From Caulobacteraceae bacterium (GTDB taxonomy: Bacteria; Pseudomonadota; Alphaproteobacteria; Caulobacterales; Caulobacteraceae), in NCBI GenBank assembly GCA_947475735.1, contig CANJLQ010000004.1, forward strand, positions 160,335 to 224,334: a stretch of 64,000 bases of DNA. Reading direction: 5' to 3'. Positions 50,304 to 64,000 of the stretch are shown one piece after another. A program made the translations under genes and the position numbers. How positions within the stretch are numbered: position 1 is the stretch's first letter; each line of letters opens with the position of its first letter. The notes under the pieces were generated by a model. That model had not been told where the DNA came from. It made no database searches and saw only the letters and a list, made by a program, of their open reading frames with translations.

Positions 50304-50969
50304 TCATCGACCCGTCTGCATGCCGCCAACGATCATCTCGGCATAGGTTTCGCCGATCTCCCGTGCCGACTGCTGGGAGGTCTCGGGACGGAACCAGCGA
50401 TGGGTCCAACCGAGAACGCCGAGCATGCCGTAGGCGACGACCCGCGATGGGCCGACGTTTCTCAGGCTGCCGTCCGCATACCCCGCCTCGACGATCTCGA
50501 TGAAGGCGTTCTCGATGATGCGATTGACCTGACGCATGTCCGAGGACCACTTGGTCCGGGAGCCGGACACCCGGCTCAGGTTCTCGCGAATATAGATGAA
50601 CAGCAGAGGATAGTGCTCGCCGTAGGACTCCATGATGGCGACGATCAGCGCCCTCAACTTCTCCGGCGGTGACATTTCGCTCGCGGCGATCTCGGTGGCG
50701 ATTTCGGAGTTCCGCTCGGCGACCGCGCGCAGGACCTCGTCGAACAGCTCTTCCTTGGAGGATATGTAGTAGTAGACCGATGCCCGATCGATCCCCAGTT
50801 CCGCTGCGACGGCGCTGATGCTGGCCCCCTGCAGGCCGAGACGATCAAAGACCCGGACCGCCGCTTCCGCGATCTCGCGACGCCGACGCTTGTAGGCGTC
50901 GGAGCTCTCATGTTTGGCGGCCTTTCGGCGTTTCCCGATACCGCTGGTCTGATCGGTTGAAGCAGTCAT
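50304..50969 (-). CDS. TetR/AcrR family transcriptional regulator
   Basis: EIAEAAVRVFDRLGLQGASISAVAAELGIDRASVYYYISSKEELFDEVL. Confidence 0.93.
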   Translation of the reverse strand: MTASTDQTSGIGKRRKAAKHESSDAYKRRRREIAEAAVRVFDRLGLQGASISAVAAELGIDRASVYYYISSKEELFDEVLRAVAERNSEIATEIAASEMSPPEKLRALIVAIMESYGEHYPLLFIYIRENLSRVSGSRTKWSSDMRQVNRIIENAFIEIVEAGYADGSLRNVGPSRVVAYGMLGVLGWTHRWFRPETSQQSAREIGETYAEMIVGGMQTGR

Positions 50970-51017
50970 TGCCGACCCTGATTACCGATGGAATCGGCAA
51001 ACACCAACGCGTCGCAC

Positions 51018-51776
51018 TCAGCCTTTCGGGCCACCGGCAACATAAAGAACCTGTCCGGTGACGAAGCTCGACCGCTCGTCTGCGAAGAAGGAGACGGCGT
51101 TGGCGACGTCGTCGGGATGGCCGGGACGACCGACGGGGATGTCGCGCACGACCTCGGCGACCATGGCGTCGAAGGACAGGCCCAGGCGCTCCGCAACGCC
51201 GGCCGTCATGGGTGTCACGACGAAGCCTGGGGCCACCACATTGGCTGTTATGCCCGACTTTCCCAGTTCAAGGGCGAGAGACTTGGTCAGGCCGATCACC
51301 CCGGCCTTGGCGGCGGCGTAGTTGGCCTGGCCGTGAGCGCCGAGCGCGGCGATGCTTGCGAGGTTGACGATCCGTCCGTGGCCTCTGGTGCGCATGCCGG
51401 CCTGTACGGCCCGACACATGAGGAAGACCCCGCGCAGGTTGACGTCCTGGACGACCTGCCAGTCCTCAAGGCTCATCTTGGCGACGGTCCGCTCCCGCAG
51501 GATGCCGGCATTGTTCACGAGAACCGCCGCAGGGCCCAGCGCGGCCTCCACCGACGCGACGGCGTGCTCGACCGACCCTTCATCCGCGACGTCCACGGCC
51601 ACACCCAGGGCGTGTCGGCCGAGGGCCTCAACCTTGGCAACAGTCTCGGCGCAGGCCGAGGCGTCCAGATCCATTACGGCGATGTCGCATCCGTCGCGGG
51701 CGAGGCGCTCGGCGATCGCGGCACCGATGCCGCGTGCGGCCCCGGTCACCAGGGCGATCCGTGTGCCCTCGCTCAT
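51018..51776 (-). CDS. SDR family oxidoreductase (FabG/PhaB-like)
   Basis: ALVTGAARGIGAAIAERLARDGCDIAVMD..LVNNAGI..YAAAKAGVIGLTKSLA. Confidence 0.93.
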   Translation of the reverse strand: MSEGTRIALVTGAARGIGAAIAERLARDGCDIAVMDLDASACAETVAKVEALGRHALGVAVDVADEGSVEHAVASVEAALGPAAVLVNNAGILRERTVAKMSLEDWQVVQDVNLRGVFLMCRAVQAGMRTRGHGRIVNLASIAALGAHGQANYAAAKAGVIGLTKSLALELGKSGITANVVAPGFVVTPMTAGVAERLGLSFDAMVAEVVRDIPVGRPGHPDDVANAVSFFADERSSFVTGQVLYVAGGPKG

Positions 51777-53479
51777 GACAGGCCCAGCCGCTCGGCGGCC
51801 ATGCGCGACAGCAGGAACTTGCGCGGGCGGCCAGACGGGGTCAGCGGAACCTCATCCGCTGCGATCGGCAGAATATGGCGGGGTACCTTGAAGCGAGCCA
51901 GCCGTGCGGCGCACCAGTCGATAAGAGTCTGCGGTTCCAGAATGTGTCCAGGTCGAGTGATGATGAAGGCCACGCCGACCTCGCCCATGCGATCATCGGG
52001 TACGGGGGCGACATGGGCCTGGAGCACGGCGGGGTGAACCATGAGGACGTCTTCGATCTCCGACGGGGTGACCTGCTCGCCGCCGCAGCGATAGCTCTCC
52101 TTCACCCGCCCCACGAGCGACAGATAGCCATCCTGGTCGATGCGGCCGAGATCACCCGTGTGCAGCCATCCCTTGGCATCGAACGCCTCGGCCGTAGCGT
52201 CGGGCTTGTCGAAATATCCCTGTGTCACACCCGGGCCCCGAGCCATCAGCTCGCCGACCTCTCCGGGGTTCAGAACGGTGCCCGTCGCCGGGTCCACGAC
52301 CTGGTAGTCAACAAGGCGGTTTTCGATCGCCGGATCGCCTGCCGGCCCGACGTCGCGAAGCCGGCCGTTGGTCGTCTTGAGCCGTTCGGCGGGGTCATCG
52401 GGACGCGTCACTGTCGTGGACGCCGTGCACTCGCTCATCCCATAGCCGGTCGTGATTTCGATCCCCGGGAATGTCTGCAGGATCCGGTCCCACAGTCCGG
52501 GAGGCGTTCGGCCGCCCGAGGACAGCATCGCCTTGAGCGAACCCGTATCGGCAGAACCGGCATCCAGGGCCTCGAGCACGGCGAGGGTCATGGTCGGGAT
52601 GAGGAGGAGGTCGCTCACCTCATGCCGTTCGATGGTTCGCAGCGTCTCGCGAGGATCGAACCTCAGGTGCGGAACCACGGCCCCGCCGACGAACAGGGCG
52701 GCCAGCAGTCCCTCCACATAGCCGTAGACGTGGTTCATCGGCAGGCTGAAGTGGATGCGCCGGCCGTCTTCGAAGGCGCGGGCGTAGGCGCTGCCGAAGG
52801 CGGCGCGCAGCAACATGTCGTGGGTAAGCAGGACGCCCTTGGGCGATCCCGTCGTCCCTGATGTGTAGATGATGTCTGCGGGGGCCTGGGGATCGGCCTT
52901 CACCTGGAACGGTGCTGTCGCGATGAGCGCCTCGAACGAGACTGCCCCGGCGCGGCCTTCGCCCTCGGCCTTGAAAACGGCGATGGAGCGCAGGTCCGGC
53001 AAATCTTCGCCGCCCCCGGCGGTCTCCCAGCCCGGGGCGATGTCATCCAGCATGCCGAGATAGTCGAGATCGCGGAAGCGATCCATGGTGACCAGCAGGG
53101 CCGCCCGGGACTGGCGCAGGACATAGGCCAGTTCGTCCCTGCGGTTCAGGATGTTGACCGGCACCGCGACGCAGCCGACGGCCGCGACAGCGAACTTCAG
53201 GGCCGCGAACGCAGGGTAGTTGGCCATCACGAGCGCAACGTGTTCGCCCGGTCTGAGGCCGGCAGCCTGCAGACCCCCGGCGACTGCGGCGGACCAGTCG
53301 GCCATCTGTCGATAGGTCCACGTTCTGTCGTCTGTGATCAGATAGGGACGATCCGGGTGATGATCCGCCGCCTCCAGCAGCTTCTCGTACAGGGTCCGGG
53401 GAACCCACGGCGAAAAGCGATCCGCAAGCGCAGACTGGCGATCGGCAACGGTCAACAAGGGCGTGCAGGCGGACTTCAT
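51773..53479 (-). CDS. AMP-dependent acyl-CoA synthetase/ligase
   Basis: ADIIYTSGTTGSPKGVLLTHDML..TGYGMSECT..GWLHTGDLGRIDQDGYLSLVGRVKESY. Confidence 0.94.
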   Translation of the reverse strand: MKSACTPLLTVADRQSALADRFSPWVPRTLYEKLLEAADHHPDRPYLITDDRTWTYRQMADWSAAVAGGLQAAGLRPGEHVALVMANYPAFAALKFAVAAVGCVAVPVNILNRRDELAYVLRQSRAALLVTMDRFRDLDYLGMLDDIAPGWETAGGGEDLPDLRSIAVFKAEGEGRAGAVSFEALIATAPFQVKADPQAPADIIYTSGTTGSPKGVLLTHDMLLRAAFGSAYARAFEDGRRIHFSLPMNHVYGYVEGLLAALFVGGAVVPHLRFDPRETLRTIERHEVSDLLLIPTMTLAVLEALDAGSADTGSLKAMLSSGGRTPPGLWDRILQTFPGIEITTGYGMSECTASTTVTRPDDPAERLKTTNGRLRDVGPAGDPAIENRLVDYQVVDPATGTVLNPGEVGELMARGPGVTQGYFDKPDATAEAFDAKGWLHTGDLGRIDQDGYLSLVGRVKESYRCGGEQVTPSEIEDVLMVHPAVLQAHVAPVPDDRMGEVGVAFIITRPGHILEPQTLIDWCAARLARFKVPRHILPIAADEVPLTPSGRPRKFLLSRMAAERLGLS

Positions 53480-53503
53480 GGTCAGGACGCCAAGGCGATG
53501 GGC

Positions 53504-54877
53504 TCAGGGATTCAGCAGTTCGTGGTGGCGACGATACTCGGATCGACCCCAGCCGAAAGCCAGGGCGGCGAGGGCGGTGGAAACCGAGAGGGTCAACCCC
53601 AGCGACATCCCCAAGGCCGCCTCGGAGCGAAACACGAAGTCGTTCAGCAGACCGGGCAACAGGGGGCCCATCGTCAGTCCGCCCAGGTTCGCGATGAACA
53701 GGATCAGCGCGAGCGCCTGGCCCCGGACCTGATTGGGCAGGACCATCTGGGACGCGGCGTAACAACTGCCCGCAGGCATGGCCAGAAGGACCACTCCGAC
53801 AGCGAAGACCGCGACCGTGGCCATTGCGCTGGACCCTTGGGCCCAAAGCAGGGCGACGAAGGCCGCAGTGCCGAAAATCGAGCTGACCATGGCGATCCGA
53901 AGCGCGGCGTCCCGGCGACCCGCGACCAGGCCTCGATCGCTCAAGCGCCCGCCCATCAGCATGCCGAAGCTGCCGCCGATCAGGACCACGAGGCCCATCA
54001 CCAGGCCGGTCTGCTGCGGCGTCCAGTCGAAGGAGCGCTGCAGGACCCCCGGTGACCACAGCATGAAGGCGTAAAGCGCCACGGCCTGGAACATCAGTCC
54101 GAGGGCGATAGCGGCAACGGCCACGCGGCGTTTGGCGATCTCGGCGACCGTTTCGGCAATGCTCAGTCGGGCGACGGCCCCATCCTGGGCCACGAGGGCC
54201 TTGCGCCGCCTGGGCTCTCGAAGGGTCAGAACCCACAGGGCAACCAAGAGTCCGGGAATGCCCGTGACCAGAAAGGTTGCTCGCCACGAGGCGATCTCGC
54301 CAAAAACAGGCAGTGTCAGGGTCGCGGTCTGGGTGACCAGCTGGACGACCAGTCCGCCGACCAGAAGCGCCAGACCGGATCCGAGGTAGATGCCCACCCC
54401 ATAGAGGCTCATTGCGGCACCCAGCTTCTCGTTTGGAAAGCTGTCGGAAATCATCGACACAGCCGCAGGCGCGAGGGTGGCCTCGCCGACCCCGACACCC
54501 ATGCGGGCGAGAAAGAGACCCGGATAGCCCGTGGCGACAGCGCAGGCCGCTGTCATCAGGCTCCAGAAGAAGACGCCTGCCGCGATGATATTGCGCCGGT
54601 TGAAACGGTCCACCAGCCTGCCCGCCGGCAGGCTGACCAGGGTGTAGAACAGTGAGAAGGCGAGGCCACCCAACAGGCCGACCTGGGTGTCGGAGACCGC
54701 GAACTCGGCCTTGATGGGACCAACGAGCAGGCTCAGGATTTGACGGTCGATGAACGACAGCGTGTAGCAAACGGTCAGGACAGCGACCGTGTACCAGGCA
54801 TAACCGCCCGGGCTCTGTCCCTCCAAAGAAGGGGCCGCCGGACCTTTCGATCCGGCGACCTGGGAGGTTTCAGTCAT
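53504..54877 (-). CDS. MFS transporter (spinster-like)
   Basis: 12-TM MFS; VLTVCYTLSFIDRQILSLLVGPIKAEFAVSDTQVGLLGGLAFSLFYTL. Confidence 0.93.
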   Translation of the reverse strand: MTETSQVAGSKGPAAPSLEGQSPGGYAWYTVAVLTVCYTLSFIDRQILSLLVGPIKAEFAVSDTQVGLLGGLAFSLFYTLVSLPAGRLVDRFNRRNIIAAGVFFWSLMTAACAVATGYPGLFLARMGVGVGEATLAPAAVSMISDSFPNEKLGAAMSLYGVGIYLGSGLALLVGGLVVQLVTQTATLTLPVFGEIASWRATFLVTGIPGLLVALWVLTLREPRRRKALVAQDGAVARLSIAETVAEIAKRRVAVAAIALGLMFQAVALYAFMLWSPGVLQRSFDWTPQQTGLVMGLVVLIGGSFGMLMGGRLSDRGLVAGRRDAALRIAMVSSIFGTAAFVALLWAQGSSAMATVAVFAVGVVLLAMPAGSCYAASQMVLPNQVRGQALALILFIANLGGLTMGPLLPGLLNDFVFRSEAALGMSLGLTLSVSTALAALAFGWGRSEYRRHHELLNP

Positions 54878-57357
54878 CAGAACCGAGCCGCGAACTGGAG
54901 AGCGATCTCGCGGCCGCGAGCCACCACGCCACGTTGCTCGCCGATGGCACCAGGCACACTGGCTCCACCGGTCCGGTCCGCGGCGTAGAGGATGTAGGTC
55001 TCATCCGACAGGTTCCGTCCGAGGAGCTGGACCGTGTACCGGTCGTCGGGCGAGGTTAGCGTCAGGCCCGCGTTGTAGCGCCAGAACGAGTCCTGGAGTG
55101 CGGAGGGGGCCATGGTCTCCGAGGCGAAGTAGGAGCCGCTGTAGAAGGCATCTCCCGTCAGCGCGAGGTTGAAGCCGGCGATCTGGGTCTCATAGGTGAA
55201 ACCTGCGCTACCCGCCCATTCCGGGGCCCTTGCGGGCGCCCGACCCTCGAAGTCCTGCTGCAGGGTCAGAGCGGTCGCATTGACGAAGGAGCAGTTCGCG
55301 GGAGCCACAGCCGTCGCCCGGACCGTTCCGGTCGGGAACGCGTAGGAATAGCACTGCCCGACGAAGTCGCGGAACTGGGCGTCGACATAGGCGATCGCGC
55401 CGCGCACCTCGAGACCGTCGGTCAGCTGCCACCGCGCGTCGGCCTCGAAGCCGCGTTGCTGGACTTCGCCGGCGTTGTTGATCGTGTAGGCGATACGAGC
55501 AGGGTCGTAGGTGTTCACCTGCAGATCTTCGAACGTGTAGGCGAAGGCGGCGAAGTTGGCGCGGATCCGACCCTGGTCGAAGATGCCCTTGGCCCCGAAC
55601 TCGAAGCCCGACGCGGACTCGGCGTCAAAGTCGATGTCCCCGATCCGGGTCGTCGTCTGCTGTGGGCTGGTCAATCCGAAACCGCCCGACTTGTATCCGG
55701 TCTTGTAGGCCAGGAAGAAGGTCCGGTTGGACGATGGCCGCCAGGTGATCGTCGCCTCGGGCGACACGTTGTCGTCCTCGAACTGACCCACGATGTCGCC
55801 CGGCACCGTGGAGCCCGGATAGACGGTCGATTGGGTCGCGAAGGTTCCGATGCCGTACAGGTTGCGCTTGGCGAAATCCTTGGTCTCACGTGTCCAGCGC
55901 AGACCGCCCGCGATCTCGATCGTGTCGCTGATGTCATAGAGAACCTGGCCGAAGATGGACTGTGTCTCACCGTCCTGCTGGGCGAGATCCTCGTAGGTCA
56001 CGAAGCGTCCGGAAGCCGCGCTATAGCTGCTGTCGCGCAGCTTGGTGTCGTTGGTGGTGTAGAGGTCGGTCCACTGGAAGAAGGCCCCGAGCATGAAGTT
56101 CAGCGGTCCGGAGTAGTCGCTGGTCAGGCGGAACTCCTGGCTGATCTCCTGATTGGTCTGGCGATTGTAGAAGGCCAGCTGGGAATAGGTCGTCTGGTCG
56201 AGACCGGACAGGAACTCGTACTGGGTGGAGTTGTAGCCTGTTGTTGACACGAGGTTCAGCGTCTCGCTGAGGGCCCAATCGAACTCCAGCACGCCGGTGA
56301 AGACGTCCAGTTCGCCATAGGCCCGGCCGTTTCCACGATAGCCGCGCATCGTACGAGCGATCGCGTCAGGAAGATCGCCGCTGGTCGTGCGGTTGTCTGC
56401 GACGCAATCAGCGAAGGGGTCCGCGATCCCATAGACCCTCGGGTTGGAGCCGCCGGAACAGGCTCCGATGTTCTGCGTCGCGACACCGGGTCCGGCGTCT
56501 TCGTTGTGACCGGCGAACAGCTTCAGACGTGCGGTGATCGTCGGAGCGATCTCCGCTTCGATCGTGAGGCGGCCGAGGATCTCTTCGTCGCCGGGACGGG
56601 AATCTGCCGTGCCGGGCAGCGTCGCGGCACCGGCGGGTGCGCCCGTCGCCGCGACGTAGAAGGGGTTGGCGATGGGCTGGGCCGTGTTGGTCAGCCAGCC
56701 GTCCAGGTTGCGATAACGCAGAGCGAGACGAGCCGACAGGCCCTCGGCGATCGGGCCTGAGAGATAGCCCTCGAGCGTGGCCTCGTCGCCTTCGAACTCA
56801 TAGCCGGCGCGAATGCCGGCCTCGAAGACATCCGTCGGATTCGCCGAGCTGATCGAGATCACACCCGCGGGGCTGTTCTTTCCGAAGAAGAGGGCCTGGG
56901 GCCCTTTCAGGACCTCCACCTGCTCCAGATCGAAAAAGCCCATCTGGGTGATGCGGCCATCGCTGGTCTGGACGCCATCGATCGCCACTGACACCGCCTG
57001 CTCGAAGCCGGTCTGGTTGGCCGGAGAGCTGATGCCGCGGATGGCGACGGATCCGCCGCCATTGGACTTGTAGGCCCCGACGACCACGGTCGGGGTCAGT
57101 TCGCCGATCCGCGACAGGTCGTCGGCGCGGTTTCGTTCGAGTGTTTCAGCGCTCACGACATTGACGACGACCGGAACGCTGATCAGCGTCTCCGACCGGC
57201 GACGCGCGGTGACCACGATGTCGTCGACTGTCGATGTCCCGTCTTGCCCCGCCTGGGCCGTGCCGGGTGCGTCCTGTGCAGCGACAGGCTGGGCGAACGT
57301 GACGATGAGCGCACCGGCGGCGCTCGCCATCAAAAGCGACTTGGTGGTGACAGCCAT
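54877..57357 (-). CDS. TonB-dependent receptor
   Basis: STVDDIVVTARRRSETLISVPVVVNVVSAETLERN..VEVLKGPQALFFGKNSPAGVISISSANPT; C-terminal ALQFAARF. Confidence 0.94.
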   Translation of the reverse strand: MAVTTKSLLMASAAGALIVTFAQPVAAQDAPGTAQAGQDGTSTVDDIVVTARRRSETLISVPVVVNVVSAETLERNRADDLSRIGELTPTVVVGAYKSNGGGSVAIRGISSPANQTGFEQAVSVAIDGVQTSDGRITQMGFFDLEQVEVLKGPQALFFGKNSPAGVISISSANPTDVFEAGIRAGYEFEGDEATLEGYLSGPIAEGLSARLALRYRNLDGWLTNTAQPIANPFYVAATGAPAGAATLPGTADSRPGDEEILGRLTIEAEIAPTITARLKLFAGHNEDAGPGVATQNIGACSGGSNPRVYGIADPFADCVADNRTTSGDLPDAIARTMRGYRGNGRAYGELDVFTGVLEFDWALSETLNLVSTTGYNSTQYEFLSGLDQTTYSQLAFYNRQTNQEISQEFRLTSDYSGPLNFMLGAFFQWTDLYTTNDTKLRDSSYSAASGRFVTYEDLAQQDGETQSIFGQVLYDISDTIEIAGGLRWTRETKDFAKRNLYGIGTFATQSTVYPGSTVPGDIVGQFEDDNVSPEATITWRPSSNRTFFLAYKTGYKSGGFGLTSPQQTTTRIGDIDFDAESASGFEFGAKGIFDQGRIRANFAAFAYTFEDLQVNTYDPARIAYTINNAGEVQQRGFEADARWQLTDGLEVRGAIAYVDAQFRDFVGQCYSYAFPTGTVRATAVAPANCSFVNATALTLQQDFEGRAPARAPEWAGSAGFTYETQIAGFNLALTGDAFYSGSYFASETMAPSALQDSFWRYNAGLTLTSPDDRYTVQLLGRNLSDETYILYAADRTGGASVPGAIGEQRGVVARGREIALQFAARF

Positions 57358-57448
57358 GGCTTCCCCCTGATGTTTCCGACCTTGCCGCCGTGCGCCCGTC
57401 TTCTGCGAGTCCTTGCGACATCGTCAGGAAGACCCTCATCTGATGAAC

Positions 57449-57468
57449 TGTCAATACTGGTGTTGACA
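57449..57468. promoter_or_regulatory. Candidate operator 1, TGTCAATACTGGTGTTGACA
   Basis: Inverted repeat TGTCAA-N8-TTGACA between the divergent TonB receptor and MaoC-like genes. Confidence 0.6.
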
Positions 57469-57472
57469 AAAA

Positions 57473-57488
57473 TCAACGACCGCGTTGA
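57473..57488. promoter_or_regulatory. Candidate operator 2, TCAACGACCGCGTTGA
   Basis: Inverted repeat TCAAC-N6-GTTGA; core matches TCAACGATAGTGTTGA at 63589-63604. Confidence 0.55.
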
Positions 57489-57577
57489 TGATGCCGTCCG
57501 GAGACCTGAACCCCAGTCCATAAAAAGGGGGAACGGGTCCCATCGCGGCCATTGCCGTTCTTCTGGAGGATCATGAC

Positions 57578-58024
57578 GTGGACGGATCTGGAGCCTCGCT
57601 CCCGCAGGATATCGCGATCACGATCGACACCCCGGTCGGCTATCGCCTGCAAAGCCTGAGAAAGAAGGCCGCGATCCAGCTCATGGGATCTCGCCTCTGG
57701 GGCCGGTTCAATCCCAACCATTGGGATCCCGTCTACGCCGCCGCCACAGGCCTCAAGGCACCGATCCAGACGGGTGAGATGTCATCGGCCTACATCGCTG
57801 AGATGTGCGTCAACCACTTCGGTGCGGCTTTCTTCAGGGGCGCCCGGGTGGTCTGCAAATATGTGGCCTCGACCTATGCGGACGAGATCATCTCGACCCA
57901 CGGTGTTGTTCGCGAGAAGACGCCCAAGGGGGCCGGCTTCCGCTTCATCGTCGATGTGTGGGCCGAGAACGAGGCCGGAGAGAAGAAGACCGCCGGCTGG
58001 GTTGAAGTCGATGTCGGCGTCTGA
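57578..58024 (+). CDS. MaoC-like hotdog dehydratase-family protein (subunit 1; GTG start)
   Basis: MGSRLWGRFNPNHWDPVYAAATGLKAPIQTGEMSSAYIAEMC; SD-like ctggagga upstream. Confidence 0.78.
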   Translation: MDGSGASLPQDIAITIDTPVGYRLQSLRKKAAIQLMGSRLWGRFNPNHWDPVYAAATGLKAPIQTGEMSSAYIAEMCVNHFGAAFFRGARVVCKYVASTYADEIISTHGVVREKTPKGAGFRFIVDVWAENEAGEKKTAGWVEVDVGV

Positions 58025-58052
58025 CGCTGAAGGGGCAGGAGGAACCACCGCC

Positions 58053-58586
58053 ATGACGCCGCTACCCGCCACCGACGGCCTGAAACCCATGAGCCCAATC
58101 CAGGCGCGCCAAACCCGCGCGTTCATAGACGGTCTGGCCTCGGAGGCCCGTCCATACTGGGACATGGTCGAGATCGGCGATGAGCTGTCGCGCGATCTTC
58201 ATCTCTCCGCCGAGCTGGTCATCCTCTATGCGGATGGCGTCGAGGACTTTAATCCCTGGTACGAAGGCTGGCGGATGAACTCCTGGCACATCGAGGGCCA
58301 GTCTCCCTTCGGGGGAGCCATCGTGCCGCCGCTGCTCGTCTCTCACTTCGTCCTGTCGGTGCAATTCGACGCGACCCGGCCGTTCTCGATCGGCTCCATC
58401 CACACCTTCCACGACTCGGAAATCGTGGAGCCGATCCTGGTGGGAACCACGGTCCGGATCACGACCCGGGCGGTCGAGAAGTTCGAAAAGCGCGGGCGGC
58501 GTTATGTCCGGCATGCCGTCGAGGTCACGGACGTGGAGGACAACCGGGTCTACTTCCGAGAGACCCGAGACATCCTCTCGCTTTGA
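58053..58586 (+). CDS. MaoC-like hotdog protein (subunit 2)
   Basis: VILYADGVEDFNPWYEG..SPFGGAIVPPLLVSHF..IHTFHDSEIVEPILVGTTVRITTRAVEKFEKRGRRYV. Confidence 0.75.
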   Translation: MTPLPATDGLKPMSPIQARQTRAFIDGLASEARPYWDMVEIGDELSRDLHLSAELVILYADGVEDFNPWYEGWRMNSWHIEGQSPFGGAIVPPLLVSHFVLSVQFDATRPFSIGSIHTFHDSEIVEPILVGTTVRITTRAVEKFEKRGRRYVRHAVEVTDVEDNRVYFRETRDILSL

Positions 58587-58598
58587 TCGGCCCGTGTG

Positions 58599-59030
58599 AT
58601 GGACAGCACAACCCTCAGGCCGGTCGTCGATGAAATCCTCAAGCTCGATCAGGCTGGCGCTCACCTGCTGGGCAGCGCCTGCCAGGATTGCGATACGGTC
58701 TATTTCCCACCCGTGTTGAGCTGTCGGAACCCCGACTGCGCGGGCAAGACCATCGTCCCCTTTCATTTGGAAGGCGCAGGGGTGCTCTTCAGCTTCACGG
58801 TCCAGCGCTATCGTCCCCCGGCCTTGTTCGCCCTGGAGCCGTGGGAGGCCTATGCCATCGGCTCCGTGGATCTCGCCGGCGGGGTCAGGGTCTTGGGGAT
58901 CATCCGGGCCCCGTTCGATCAGCTCAGCCCAGGCCTGGCGGTCCGACTTTCGACCTCTGTGATCAACGACGGCGACGAGGGTGCGGTCATCACCCATGTC
59001 TTCGTTCCGGATGAGGATGGCCAGGGATGA
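58599..59030 (+). CDS. DUF35 OB-fold / zinc-ribbon acyl-CoA-associated protein
   Basis: LLGSACQDCDTVYFPPVLSCRNPDCAGKTI..GVLFSFTVQRYRPP. Confidence 0.88.
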   Translation: MDSTTLRPVVDEILKLDQAGAHLLGSACQDCDTVYFPPVLSCRNPDCAGKTIVPFHLEGAGVLFSFTVQRYRPPALFALEPWEAYAIGSVDLAGGVRVLGIIRAPFDQLSPGLAVRLSTSVINDGDEGAVITHVFVPDEDGQG

Positions 59031-60217
59031 GGCCGGTCTATGTCCTCGGCGTCGGGGCCCATCCCTGGGGCAAGTGGCCCGACACGCCACAGGTGGGTCT
59101 GGCCATTCACGCCATGAAGGCCGCGCTGACGGAGGCGAACCTCGAATGGCGCGACCTTCAGGGCCTCGTCGCCGCCAGCTCGCGCTTCGAGGGCGGAATG
59201 GGATGGGGACTTCACGCCAATGAACTGGCCCAGGCCGTCTCCGAGCACGGGATGGCCTGCGTCAATGTCGGGGGGGCCTGCGCCGCCGGAGCTGTCGCCT
59301 TTCACACGGCCCAAATGATGGTGGCCAGCGGTCAGTACGACACCGTGGCCACCCTCGGGGCCGAGCGTATGCCCAAGGGATTCATCCCCCGCCCGCCGGG
59401 GGCTGCAGACGATCCGACGGACCATGACTTCCTGCGATGGAAGACCATCGGGGCGACCAATCCCGCCTACTGGGCGATGGAAGCCCGCCGCCGAATGTAT
59501 GAGGTAGGCACGACCGAGGAAACCTTCGCCGCCGCGTCCGTGCTCATGCGGCGTCATGGCGCTCACAACCCCTATGCCCGGTTTCGCACGCCCTCGAGCG
59601 TCGATGAGGTGATGGCCTCGCCCATGGTCAGCGATCCGCTGCGACTTCTCGAAATCTGCGCGGTCAGCGACGGGGCGGCCTCGGTCATCCTGGGATCCGA
59701 GGCGCAGGCTCGCCGGAGCGGAGGTCCCCTCATCCAGGTCGCGGGCAGCGCCATCGCCACAGGCCAGTTCGGCGACCCGGCCACCCGCATTCCCATGGTC
59801 GGCTCGACGCCTCGGCCGGGGGTCGCCCACACCAGCGAAGTCGTCGGCGCTGTTCAGAAGGCCTGGAAGGCGGCCAGCATCGGTCCAGAGGATGTCGACC
59901 TGCTGGAACTCGCAGACAATACGGCGTGGCACGTCCTCGCCTGGCCTGAGATGCTGGGATTCTTCGAGTCGGGCGAAAGCGACCGCAGGCTGGCAGCCGG
60001 CGACCTTCAGGTCGGCGGACGACTGCCGATCAATCCCAGCGGGGGCTTCCTGTCCTTCGGCGAAGCGACGACCGCGCAGGCGCTTCTGCAGATTTGCGAG
60101 CTATTCTGGCAGCTCCGGGGACAGGCCGGCGGACGGCAGGTGGAAAACGCCCGGATCGCCATGTCGGCCGTGCTCGGCCTTGGCGCCAACGGGGGCTCCG
60201 TGGTGCTGAAGCGATGA
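59027..60217 (+). CDS. Thiolase-fold protein of the SCP2/lipid-transfer (Ltp) type
   Basis: ACVNVGGACAAGAVAFHTAQMMVASGQYDTVATLGAERMPKGF..NPSGGFLSFGEATTAQALLQICELFWQLRGQAGGRQVENA. Confidence 0.9.
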   Translation: MRPVYVLGVGAHPWGKWPDTPQVGLAIHAMKAALTEANLEWRDLQGLVAASSRFEGGMGWGLHANELAQAVSEHGMACVNVGGACAAGAVAFHTAQMMVASGQYDTVATLGAERMPKGFIPRPPGAADDPTDHDFLRWKTIGATNPAYWAMEARRRMYEVGTTEETFAAASVLMRRHGAHNPYARFRTPSSVDEVMASPMVSDPLRLLEICAVSDGAASVILGSEAQARRSGGPLIQVAGSAIATGQFGDPATRIPMVGSTPRPGVAHTSEVVGAVQKAWKAASIGPEDVDLLELADNTAWHVLAWPEMLGFFESGESDRRLAAGDLQVGGRLPINPSGGFLSFGEATTAQALLQICELFWQLRGQAGGRQVENARIAMSAVLGLGANGGSVVLKR

Positions 60218-60999
60218 ATGCCGCAGTTCAGCTCGACGTGCAGGACGGCGTGGCCCTCATGACCCTGTCCCGTCCGGAGACCGGCAACGCGGTCAGCCAG
60301 GATGTCGCGGACGGGTTGCTGGCGGCTGCGCTTGCCTGCGAGTCCGACGACAAGGTTCGCAGTGTCCTCCTGACCGCGCAGGGCACCGCGTTCTGTGTCG
60401 GGGGCGACGTCAGGGCTTTCGCAGAGGCCGGCGACGGCATGCCGTCGCTGGTTCGGCGTCTGACCGCGTCCCTCCACATGGCGGTGGCGCGGCTCGCTCG
60501 CATGGACAAGCCTTTGGTCACGGCGGTCAACGGCGCTGCAGCGGGTGCCGGTCTGGGCCTGGCCGTTCTTGGCGACATCGCCCTGGCGGCGCGATCCGCG
60601 AAGTTCACCGCCGCCTATGGTGCCCTGGGACTGACGCCCGACGCCGGGGCGACCTGGCTGTTGCCGCGTCTGGTCGGTCTCAGACAAGCCCAGAGACTGT
60701 TGCTGCTCAACGATCGGATCGATGCGGTCGAGGCGGAACGGATTGGACTGATCACGCAGGTTGTCGAGGATAACGCGCTCGCAGCCGAAGCGCTGGAGCG
60801 TGCCTCCCGGCTTGCGAAGGCTCCCCGCAGAGCCTTCGGCAGAACACGGGGCCTGCTCTATGCGGCCATGGCCAATGGTCTGGAGACCCAGCTCGAGCTG
60901 GAAGCCCAGTCCATTGCCGAGGCCGCCGGGTCCGGGGAAGGGCACGAGGGGGTCGCGGCGTTCGTCTCCAGGCGGTCAGCCGACTTCGGGTCGATCTGA
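60214..60999 (+). CDS. Enoyl-CoA hydratase/isomerase family protein
   Basis: GTAFCVGGDVRAFAEAG..PLVTAVNGAAAGAGLGLAVLGDIALAARSAKFTAAYGALGLTPDAGATWLLPRLVG. Confidence 0.93.
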   Translation: MNAAVQLDVQDGVALMTLSRPETGNAVSQDVADGLLAAALACESDDKVRSVLLTAQGTAFCVGGDVRAFAEAGDGMPSLVRRLTASLHMAVARLARMDKPLVTAVNGAAAGAGLGLAVLGDIALAARSAKFTAAYGALGLTPDAGATWLLPRLVGLRQAQRLLLLNDRIDAVEAERIGLITQVVEDNALAAEALERASRLAKAPRRAFGRTRGLLYAAMANGLETQLELEAQSIAEAAGSGEGHEGVAAFVSRRSADFGSI

Positions 61000-61932
61000 A
61001 GGCCCGGATCCGTCGACGGTCAAGGATCGCCTCAGCGCATCGGACAGCCAAGCCAGGGCCTCGTCGCCGCGTCTGGAACCGCCCGGCAAGCCGACGAAGC
61101 CGTGAATCATGTCGCCGAAATGTTCGGCTGACACCTCAACGCCTGCGGCTCGAGCCCGGTCAACGAACTGCAGGCCCTCGTCCCTGAGCGGATCATGGCC
61201 GGCGGTGATCACGGCCGTTGGCGGCAAGGAAGAAAGGTCTGCGCGCGTCAGATCAAAGAGGGGGTCGCCCGAGTGATTGCCTTCCCCCCTGTAGGCCGAC
61301 CATGCCCAGTCCAGAAAGGCGCCCGTCAGCATGTGACCCTTGCCAAACCTCACCTGAGACGCGCTTGTCCGGGACGGATCGATGCACGGATACAGCAGCC
61401 CGAGAGCCTGGACCGGAGATCGCTTTGCCGCGCAGTCGAGCGCGGTCGCAATCGCCAGCTGGGCACCCGCGCTGTCACCGGCCAACCCCACCCGTCTGGG
61501 TCTCAGCGTGGAGCGAACCCAGGCCACCGCAGCCGCCGTGTCTTCCAGCGCCGCTGGATAGGGGTGTTCCGGCGCCAGTCGATAATCGACGGACGCGACG
61601 GTCACGCCTGAGGCGATCGAGAGACGACGGCAGAGCGCGTCATGGGTCTCCAGATCCCCGAACACGAAGGCACCCCCGTGGAAGAAGACGATGATCGCAT
61701 CCAGCGAAGCGTTCGGCGGGAGAAAGAGTCGCCCGGCGATTCGCTCGGCACCGGTGATCTCGATGTCTTCGACCCGGATGGTATCCGGACGAACACCCTT
61801 TGCCAGAAAGGCGTTCGCGGCCTCGCGGATCTGGACCGCCGAAAGACCCTCGGACGGAGGACGAAGCGCCATCCGGGGGTCGGCCACCAAGACGGCGATA
61901 TCAGGGTCCAGCAGCTCCTCAGGAGGCTTCAC
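60976..61932 (-). CDS. Alpha/beta hydrolase (HSL/acetyl esterase-like; GTG start proposed)
   Basis: FFHGGAFVFGDLETHDALCR (HGG oxyanion hole), VGLAGDSAGAQLAIATAL (GDSAG), ITAGHDPLRDEG. Confidence 0.92.
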   Translation of the reverse strand: MKPPEELLDPDIAVLVADPRMALRPPSEGLSAVQIREAANAFLAKGVRPDTIRVEDIEITGAERIAGRLFLPPNASLDAIIVFFHGGAFVFGDLETHDALCRRLSIASGVTVASVDYRLAPEHPYPAALEDTAAAVAWVRSTLRPRRVGLAGDSAGAQLAIATALDCAAKRSPVQALGLLYPCIDPSRTSASQVRFGKGHMLTGAFLDWAWSAYRGEGNHSGDPLFDLTRADLSSLPPTAVITAGHDPLRDEGLQFVDRARAAGVEVSAEHFGDMIHGFVGLPGGSRRGDEALAWLSDALRRSLTVDGSGPSDRPEVG

Positions 61933-63550
61933 GGAGGCTCTCGCGACGACGCAGGTCAAAGCCCTCGTAGCCGTTCGCGGCCGTCTTTTCGAGGATCCGA
62001 CGATAGCCGCGAACGCCCCCGGAGTACGGCATGAAGACCCGGGGTTTTCCAGGCATTTCCGCGCCTACGTAGTAGGATGGGGTCGTCATGTAGAGGGTTT
62101 GCTGGGCGCGTTCATTGACGTGGGCGACCCAGGTTCGGACGGCATCTGGGGTCGCCTCGACTTCCATGATGCCGTCTCGGCGGGCGACGTCGAACAACTC
62201 GGCAAGCCAGTCGATCTGCTCCTCGCTCGACAGAAGCACATTGCTCAGCAGCGATGGGCTGCCGGGACCGCCGATAAAGAACAGGTTGGGGAAACCGTCG
62301 ACGGCGATTCCCAGATGGCTCGCCGGGCCGCCCGCCCAAGCCGCCTTCAGCGTCTGGCCCTCGCGCCCCGTGATGTCGATCTTGAGGATCGACCCGGTGA
62401 AGACGTCGAACCCTGTTGCATAGATCACGATGTCGAACGGCAGGTCCTGATCGCTCGTGCGGATGCCGTGCGGCGTAAACCGCTGGATCGGCATCTCGCT
62501 GATATCCACGAGGGAGACATTGGGCCGGTTGAATGTCTTGAAGTAGCCGCCATCGACCGAAGGGCGCCGCGTGCCGAAGGCGAAGCCGCGCGGCACCAGT
62601 TTGTCGCGCAGGCCGGGATCCTCGATCTGTTCAGCGATCTTGCGCTGGACGAAGGCCGAAGCGATGTCGTTGGCCTCCTGGTTCAGCAGGATGTCCTTGA
62701 ACGTCAGCGCAAAGCCGAATCCGAGCCGGTTCCAGGCGGCCTCGAAGGCGGCCTCGCGTTCGTGCGGATCGACCTCGGCCGCCGACCTGGGATCCGGCTT
62801 GAAGCCGAGACCGCTGGGCGAGTTTCGGGCCGCCTCTCTGCGAGCGCGGTAGTCCGCCTTGACGGCCCTATCTTCCTCTTGCGTGAGCGGCGCGTTTGCG
62901 GCCGGAATCGAATAGTTCGCCGTGCGCTGGAACACCGTCAGATGGGCCGCCTGGGCGGCGATGATCGGCGTCATCTGAACGCCCGAAGACCCAGTTCCGA
63001 TGATGGCCACGCGCTTGCCGGAGAAGTCGACGGGTTCGCGGGGCCAGCGCGCGCTGTAGATGATCCTGCCCTCGAAGGTCTCCTGGTCGGGATAGGTCGT
63101 GGCCTTGGGTTCTGACAACTGTCCGACCGCGACGACGAAGCGCGCTGCGGTGAACCTGCTCCGGTTCTCCGTCTCGATGGTCCAGCGGCACGTCTCTTTG
63201 TCATAGGCCGCCCGGCGGACGCGGGTCGACAGGTCGATGTCCTTGCGAAGGTCGAACCGGTCGGCGACGTGATTGATGTAGCTCAGGATCTCGGGCTGGG
63301 TCGCGTAGCGTTCCGTCCAGCGCCATTCCTGCTCCAGCGCCTCGGAGAAGCGGTAGGAGTAGTCGAAGCTCTCCACGTCGCAGCGCGCGCCTGGATAGCG
63401 GTTGTAGTTCCAAACGCCCCCGATCTCGTCCGAGGTCTCCAGCACCCGCGTGCGGAAGCCCTGTTCGCGGAAGGTGTGTAGCGCGCGAAGGCCAGCGAAG
63501 CCCGCGCCGACGATCAGGACATCGAGGTCGACATTCTTGGTCATGGCCAT
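61919..63550 (-). CDS. NAD(P)/FAD-dependent monooxygenase, Baeyer-Villiger / cyclohexanone monooxygenase-like
   Basis: VLIVGAGFAGLRALHTFREQGF, GGVWNYNRYPGARCDVES, FSGKRVAIIGTGSSGVQMTPIIA, HLTVFQRTANY. Confidence 0.9.
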   Translation of the reverse strand: MAMTKNVDLDVLIVGAGFAGLRALHTFREQGFRTRVLETSDEIGGVWNYNRYPGARCDVESFDYSYRFSEALEQEWRWTERYATQPEILSYINHVADRFDLRKDIDLSTRVRRAAYDKETCRWTIETENRSRFTAARFVVAVGQLSEPKATTYPDQETFEGRIIYSARWPREPVDFSGKRVAIIGTGSSGVQMTPIIAAQAAHLTVFQRTANYSIPAANAPLTQEEDRAVKADYRARREAARNSPSGLGFKPDPRSAAEVDPHEREAAFEAAWNRLGFGFALTFKDILLNQEANDIASAFVQRKIAEQIEDPGLRDKLVPRGFAFGTRRPSVDGGYFKTFNRPNVSLVDISEMPIQRFTPHGIRTSDQDLPFDIVIYATGFDVFTGSILKIDITGREGQTLKAAWAGGPASHLGIAVDGFPNLFFIGGPGSPSLLSNVLLSSEEQIDWLAELFDVARRDGIMEVEATPDAVRTWVAHVNERAQQTLYMTTPSYYVGAEMPGKPRVFMPYSGGVRGYRRILEKTAANGYEGFDLRRRESLREAS

Positions 63551-63586
63551 CTCCCTGTCGAAAATCGTGACACGGCGGCAGCAAAC

Positions 63587-63606
63587 CGTCAACGATAGTG
63601 TTGATA
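63587..63606. promoter_or_regulatory. Candidate operator 3, CGTCAACGATAGTGTTGATA
   Basis: Shares GTCAA-N8-TTGA architecture with 57449-57468; lies between the monooxygenase and mmsA starts. Confidence 0.6.
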
Positions 63607-63696
63607 GCGGTCAGGTCGGGCGCTAGGCTCCCCGAGGGTTTCAGAAAACGGCTTTCAGACGAGCCGTTTCATGATCGCTTTCAGGGAAACGCTCGC

Positions 63697-64000
63697 ATGC
63701 GCGACATCCATCATTTCATCGACGGCGCGTCCTTCACCGGATCGTCGGGCCGGTTCGGCGACGTGTTCAATCCGAACACCGGCGAGGTCCAGGCGCGCGT
63801 CCAGCTGGCGACCGAGGCCGAGATGGACCGAGCGGTCCAGGCCGCCCAGAACGCCTTCGAGGGCTGGTCCTCGACCAATCCCCAGCGCCGCGCGCGGGTG
63901 ATGTTCGAGTTCAAGCGGCTGGTCGAGGCGAACATGACCGAGCTGGCCGAGCTGCTGAGCTCCGAGCACGGCAAGGTCGTGGCCGACTCCAAAGGCGACA
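63697..64000 (+). CDS. mmsA: Methylmalonate-semialdehyde dehydrogenase (N-terminal part, cut by window edge)
   Basis: MRDIHHFIDGASFTGSSGRFGDVFNPNTGEVQARVQLATEAEMDRAVQAAQNAFEGWSSTNPQRRARVMFEFKRLVEANMTELAELLSSEHGK. Confidence 0.88.
   Translation, partial: MRDIHHFIDGASFTGSSGRFGDVFNPNTGEVQARVQLATEAEMDRAVQAAQNAFEGWSSTNPQRRARVMFEFKRLVEANMTELAELLSSEHGKVVADSKGD

Follow-up and report, generated by a model that had tools for sequence, protein, structure and literature searches.

In a 64,000-nucleotide stretch of a Caulobacteraceae bacterium genome (contig CANJLQ010000004.1; hereafter the window, meaning this whole 64-kb stretch), three 16-bp palindromes of the form TCAA-N8-TTGA lie in the promoter DNA of a Baeyer-Villiger/coenzyme A (CoA) catabolic gene cluster. 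Judged from sequence comparison, they are very probably operators for the product of a TetR-family gene at 50304-50969. This regulator would repress the divergent TonB receptor/MaoC promoters as well as those of a monooxygenase/hydrolase pair and a second mmsA copy until an inducer is present. Operator 1 (TCAATACTGGTGTTGA, 57451..57466) and operator 2 (TCAACGACCGCGTTGA, 57473..57488), which follows 22 bp from operator 1, are located between the TonB receptor and MaoC genes, and operator 3 (TCAACGATAGTGTTGA, 63589..63604) is located between the monooxygenase gene and mmsA. A preliminary description of the window had reported three such 16-bp sites, and its coordinates are exact: TCAAN8TTGA matches the window at these three places and nowhere else. 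Dinucleotide shuffles of the window (n=100) gave an expectation of 0.19 sites and a maximum of 2, with three sites in none of the 100 shuffles. The Poisson probability of three sites within the two intergenic gaps, which amount to 366 bp, is about 2e-10 at the shuffle rate and about 4e-10 at the genome density. As the genome is rich in GC, an open frame spans even operators 1 and 2, so open frames are a poor guide to whether a site, such as each of the other ten in the genome, is intragenic.

The sites are conserved together with the regulator. Close orthologs of the TetR (83-100% identity) occur in 8 of 131 Brevundimonas genomes, its own genome (G000) included and with Brevundimonas variabilis DSM 4737 (L036) carrying an ortholog of 86%, and one further match in the genus, in G178, reaches only 33% identity. 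A monooxygenase of at least 72% identity is confined to the same eight genomes of the genus; here too a further match, in G170, reaches only 33%. When the TonB/MaoC gaps of these eight genomes and of Marinicauda pacifica were compared, the site pair was found to be spaced by exactly 22 bp in all nine loci. Across the nine gaps, which are otherwise diverged, all 16 half-site columns are invariant, those of operator 1 among them, and the block 57450-57489 holds 28 invariant columns out of 40 as against 19 out of 187 outside it (Fisher 2e-14). Operator 3 is likewise found upstream of the monooxygenase gene in 8/8 genomes, where its distance to a fixed anchor codon is 34-36 bp. The TonB/MaoC gap of G032 (Brevundimonas sp. 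Root608) contains an extra operator-like site (L020:9042-9057), 55 bp beyond the pair.

The positions of the palindromes relative to predicted promoter elements were also analyzed. The two ends of operator 1 give a −35-like TTGACA on both strands: towards TonB it is TTGACA in 9/9 orthologous loci, and towards MaoC it is TTGACA in eight and TTGACG in one. A predicted MaoC-direction promoter, TTGACA-N18-GATGAT (57463..57492, plus strand; one found, 0.0 in shuffles), is covered by operators 1 and 2, and its −10-like element overlaps the right arm of operator 2. At this −10 position, 18 bp on from the −35 box, GATNNT is present in 8/9 loci; the MaoC promoter of G032 does not have it. In the TonB direction, CTTYCT is found at 17 bp in 7/9 loci, with no clear −10 element. 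For the monooxygenase, too, the −10 element is not clear; the promoter scan gave one weak site only in this region, away from operator 3. On the other side of operator 3, a predicted promoter for the cluster mmsA, TTGATA-N17-TAGGCT (63601..63629, plus strand), has a −35 element that begins in the operator; it is absent from the listing of the sigma-70 scan. Members of the TetR family are mostly repressors, and the palindromic operators overlapping predicted target promoters conform in silico to what is expected of the family. With a protein on operators 1 and 2, neither of the divergent promoters would be left uncovered, an arrangement typical of repressors. Cooperative binding is a possible cause of the 22-bp spacing (about two helical turns), and we do not claim it, because the spacing could equally be set by how the MaoC promoter is built and because site pairs in sphingomonads are spaced differently (34 bp in L144 and 35 bp in L145).

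Next, we consider which genes operator 3 serves. The preliminary description took the third site to imply that mmsA may belong to the regulon. The site alone does not prove this, since it is retained in both genomes that lack a neighboring mmsA (G032 and G067), and for the same reason it should belong first to the monooxygenase. Furthermore, the distance between operator 3 and the monooxygenase anchor is fixed, whereas that between the site and mmsA varies. Both features would fit an operator that governs the monooxygenase/hydrolase pair alone with mmsA as a bystander, an explanation we regard as possible but rather unlikely in view of three further results. First, the neighboring mmsA is an additional copy: two mmsA matches were found in each of five genomes (G000, G062, G078, G173 and G187) as against one in G032 and in G067. 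(In G185, where a contig end interrupts the mmsA copy beside the cluster, no match reached the threshold used.) Second, the promoter motif TTGATA-N17-TAGG is present in 6/6 loci with an adjacent mmsA and in 0/2 without one. Third, among 41 mmsA loci, a site lies within 300 bp in all five cluster copies, but only 1 of the 36 others has a match, which is a bare TCAAN8TTGA lacking the inner bases of the operators. Co-regulation of the cluster mmsA copy is thus probable, because this gene is an extra copy and the −35 element of its conserved promoter starts in the operator, and to this extent the earlier suggestion stands.

The two mmsA copies of the own genome (63697-64000 of the window and G000:C6:216522-216825) are 96% identical over their first 303 bases. 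Their contigs, C4 and C6, both end inside mmsA, probably reflecting an assembly break at the repeat, and the C6 copy (L095) has no operator. The history of the two copies was too close to call: in G078, and likewise in G173, the two mmsA genes share 93% identity, as compared with 91% between these two species.

We then compared the distribution of the motif with that of the regulator. With the inner bases added, the pattern TCAAYRN4YRTTGA (YR form) occurs 3-6 times per genome (mean 4.5) in the eight TetR-positive Brevundimonas genomes, as against a mean of 1.06 in the other 123 (Mann-Whitney 1.4e-6). With the locus sites removed, the eight genomes average 1.4. In the own genome, there are four matches, three of which are the operators of the locus. 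Among 397 sphingomonad genomes, 16 contain a TetR relative at E 1e-25, giving 26 matches that comprise a close group of 17 relatives (at least 241 bits, 50-66% identity), a weaker group of eight (33-38%) and the truncated L124. A site is located within 1.5 kb in 10/17 loci of the close group, and all 14 of these sites are of the YR form; at this distance none was found in the weaker group (0/8) or at L124. In wider windows of up to 10 kb per side, contigs permitting, with eleven permuted half-sites as control, 32 sites were counted across 18 loci of the close group (28 in 17 once the duplicate L043 is subtracted) versus 0-7 for the permuted half-sites, and at least one site is present in 12/17. 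In the same windows, all eight loci of the weaker group contain the motif, with 29 sites, 16 of them of the YR form, versus 0-5 for the permuted half-sites. TCAACN6GTTGA gave 110 matches versus 13 for reversed controls in the 16 TetR-matched genomes, and 14 versus 7 in eight unmatched ones (P 5e-4). The gene contexts differ: sites flank a hydrolase gene adjoining tetR in Sphingomonas rubra, and in Tsuneonella they lie between the ligase and the monooxygenase and around a second tetR.

Two observations on individual sphingomonad loci are added here. Locus L145 (Tsuneonella litorea, G934:C28) carries two TetR paralogs, 58% and 56% identical to the query, at a distance of about 4.7 kb from each other; four operator-like sites surround them. 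In L152-L159, the loci of the 33-38% relatives, TCAAC-N6-GTTGA is found within 10 kb, frequently in front of a CoA ligase gene of the cluster.

Several results weigh against the assignment of the sites to the local TetR. Taken over the entire own genome (3.47 Mb, 26 contigs), the bare TCAAN8TTGA shows no enrichment, with 13 palindromic matches versus 15 for a reversed control pattern, and genome-wide enrichment was dropped as a proof of the sites for this reason. Of the genome scan proposed in the preliminary description, what remains in favor is local: the notable feature is three sites within 366 bp of promoter DNA, not the overall frequency of the motif. The exact site is absent from five of the 17 close-group windows (L136, L141, L142, L143 and L151), three of which contain sites with one change. 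G185 also contains a diverged duplicate of the cluster (L059, G185:C19), in which no exact operator is present; its monooxygenase is 72% identical, and this duplicate lies on a 6.7-kb contig for which contamination is possible (4%). The TetR search outside the genus scored at most seven candidates per genome. Finally, the motif also accompanies the 33-38% relatives and is thus not exclusive to the local TetR; others of the family might bind it as well.

The last point leads to a second explanation, in which the sites serve another regulator, for instance a paralogous TetR elsewhere in the genome, while the local TetR has its targets at other places. In favor of this explanation, all eight sphingomonad loci of the 33-38% relatives have the motif within 10 kb. 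However, the sites at the locus accompany the local TetR in 8/8 genomes of the genus, the own genome has a single match to this TetR at E 1e-20, tetR itself sits in the regulated row, and the motif follows close relatives of the regulator through different gene contexts; we therefore consider this explanation very unlikely. Profile annotation of the conserved block 50304-63999 revealed no second regulator gene. The presence of the motif at all eight loci of the 33-38% relatives suggests that the operator code extends to a wider TetR group. The proposal that a dimeric repressor, plausibly the local TetR, binds the sites is thus supported in silico by footprinting, by co-occurrence in 8/8 genomes and by the sphingomonad relatives. 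The weakest explanation, that the palindrome is simply a pair of −35 boxes placed back to back (TGTCAA...TTGACA) at divergent promoters and bound by RNA polymerase alone, accounts for the conserved TTGACA, TTGACG and TTGATA that coincide with arms of operators 1 and 3, but is scarcely credible given that the 8-bp gap is fixed also in single sites and in G032 and G067, which have no mmsA opposite, that, when 55 sites were pooled, positions 5 and 6 on the inner side, which were free in the search and lie outside any −35 box, hold 1.33 and 0.96 bits while the outer positions −1 and −2, which a −35 box would fix, hold only 0.46 and 0.18 bits, and that site counts track the presence of the TetR.

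Genes of the cluster were annotated with Pfam and NCBIfam profiles, and the gene names used in the preliminary description (TonB receptor, MaoC, monooxygenase, mmsA and TetR) hold, with the MaoC match being weak and below cut-off. On the minus strand, the TonB-dependent receptor (54877..57357) is the first gene of a tight row that continues with an MFS transporter (53504..54877), an acyl-CoA ligase of the AMP-binding type (51773..53479) and a short-chain dehydrogenase/reductase (51018..51776), and ends with tetR (50304..50969). The TetR protein, the presumed binder, combines an N-terminal helix-turn-helix domain, TetR_N (PF00440, E 6.5e-12, 45.5 bits versus a cut-off of 24), with a C-terminal ligand/dimer domain, TetR_C_24 (PF17932, E 2.2e-16, 60.6 bits versus a cut-off of 26.4). 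The divergent row on the plus strand begins with the MaoC-like protein (57578..58024), which is conserved in orthologs despite its sub-threshold Pfam match, and proceeds through a small protein with no profile match (58053-58586), a ChsH2-like protein (58596-59030), a lipid-transfer-type thiolase (59027-60217) and an enoyl-CoA hydratase (60214..60999). An alpha/beta hydrolase of the hormone-sensitive lipase type (60976..61959) and the Baeyer-Villiger-type monooxygenase (61919..63550, with its start at 63550 or 63544) follow on the minus strand; the closest solved relatives of the latter are steroid and phenylacetone monooxygenases. The last gene, on the plus strand, is the start of mmsA (63697..63999), the second genomic copy, which is interrupted by the contig end (that of C4, and also the end of the window). 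This enzyme set suggests a pathway of ketone oxidation, then ester cleavage and CoA-dependent shortening.

The sites themselves, their conservation, their placement against genes and promoters, and their coupling to this TetR and its relatives are observed. The mechanism that we propose on this basis adds by inference that TetR binds the sites and represses rather than activates, and also what the inducer and substrate might be. With no inducer, TetR dimers would occupy operators 1 and 2, covering the −35 elements of the TonB-receptor and MaoC promoters plus the MaoC −10 element, and would also occupy operator 3, where the monooxygenase/hydrolase pair and the second mmsA copy have their predicted promoters. 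Because tetR ends the TonB-led row, the regulator would limit its own expression by negative autoregulation. TetR would leave the DNA in response to an intermediate of the pathway, perhaps an acyl-CoA that the ligase of the cluster produces, and uptake, the Baeyer-Villiger reaction, cleavage of the ester and the CoA-dependent steps would then all be induced at once. A CoA ester as the inducer is a guess drawn from KstR2.

KstR2, the TetR-type repressor that controls the lower cholesterol pathway in mycobacteria and has HIP-CoA as its effector, is the best-scoring named catabolic regulator among solved structures, although distant (hmmsearch E 2e-15; phmmer E 3e-16, 63 bits). The operator of KstR2, AAGCAAGNNCTTGCTT, appears to differ from the three sites, and an alignment revealed a different recognition-helix region in the local TetR (GILSGSLYHHFASKEE versus GIDRASVYYYISSKEE in KstR2). 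In the accessible part of PMC8700777, KstR2 is a TetR repressor of a CoA-dependent catabolic regulon, like the one proposed here; its consensus was not found printed in the portion of PMC7807495 available. EdcR of Caenibius tardaugens is described in the same part of PMC8700777 as a TetR repressor of an estradiol cluster, with a TetR_C_11 domain and a proposed operator TnnCnnTACnAnTnGTAnnGnnA. The present system resembles this sphingomonad repressor in having a catabolic cluster with a TonB receptor and an operator over promoter boxes, but has TetR_C_24 and TCAAYRN4YRTTGA in place of TetR_C_11 and TnnCnnTACnAnTnGTAnnGnnA, and by the features given in that part it is not an EdcR. As far as the available sections of PMC5343134 and PMC10304680 go, PsrA and FadP are TetR regulators of fatty acid degradation/acyl-CoA catabolism in proteobacteria, and the PsrA-type motif is G/CAAAC(N2-4)GTTTG/C; the three sites differ from this motif, with acyl-CoA catabolism being a target in common. 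For FadP, these sections gave no motif. Other palindromes are proposed for the TetR treated in the part of PMC12882949 consulted. Among the papers listed by searches of the open-access literature, we recognized none as dealing with the local TetR or its operator. The sites are probably of the ordinary TetR-operator kind.

Cumulatively, for a Baeyer-Villiger/CoA catabolic cluster found repeatedly in Brevundimonas, Marinicauda and sphingomonads, these results provide: 1) a putative operator; 2) its candidate regulator; and 3) a predicted regulon, which offers a reason for the second mmsA copy beside the cluster. The motif may be used to find sister regulons, and the promoters could be used for a sensor once the inducer is known. 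More tentatively, and with the balance somewhat against it, the TetR clade in these organisms, down to about 33% identity, may share one operator code (TCAAC-N6-GTTGA, with Y-R inside for the close relatives) despite differing gene content and presumably different ligands, in which case several paralogous catabolic regulons per cell could share or compete for operators.

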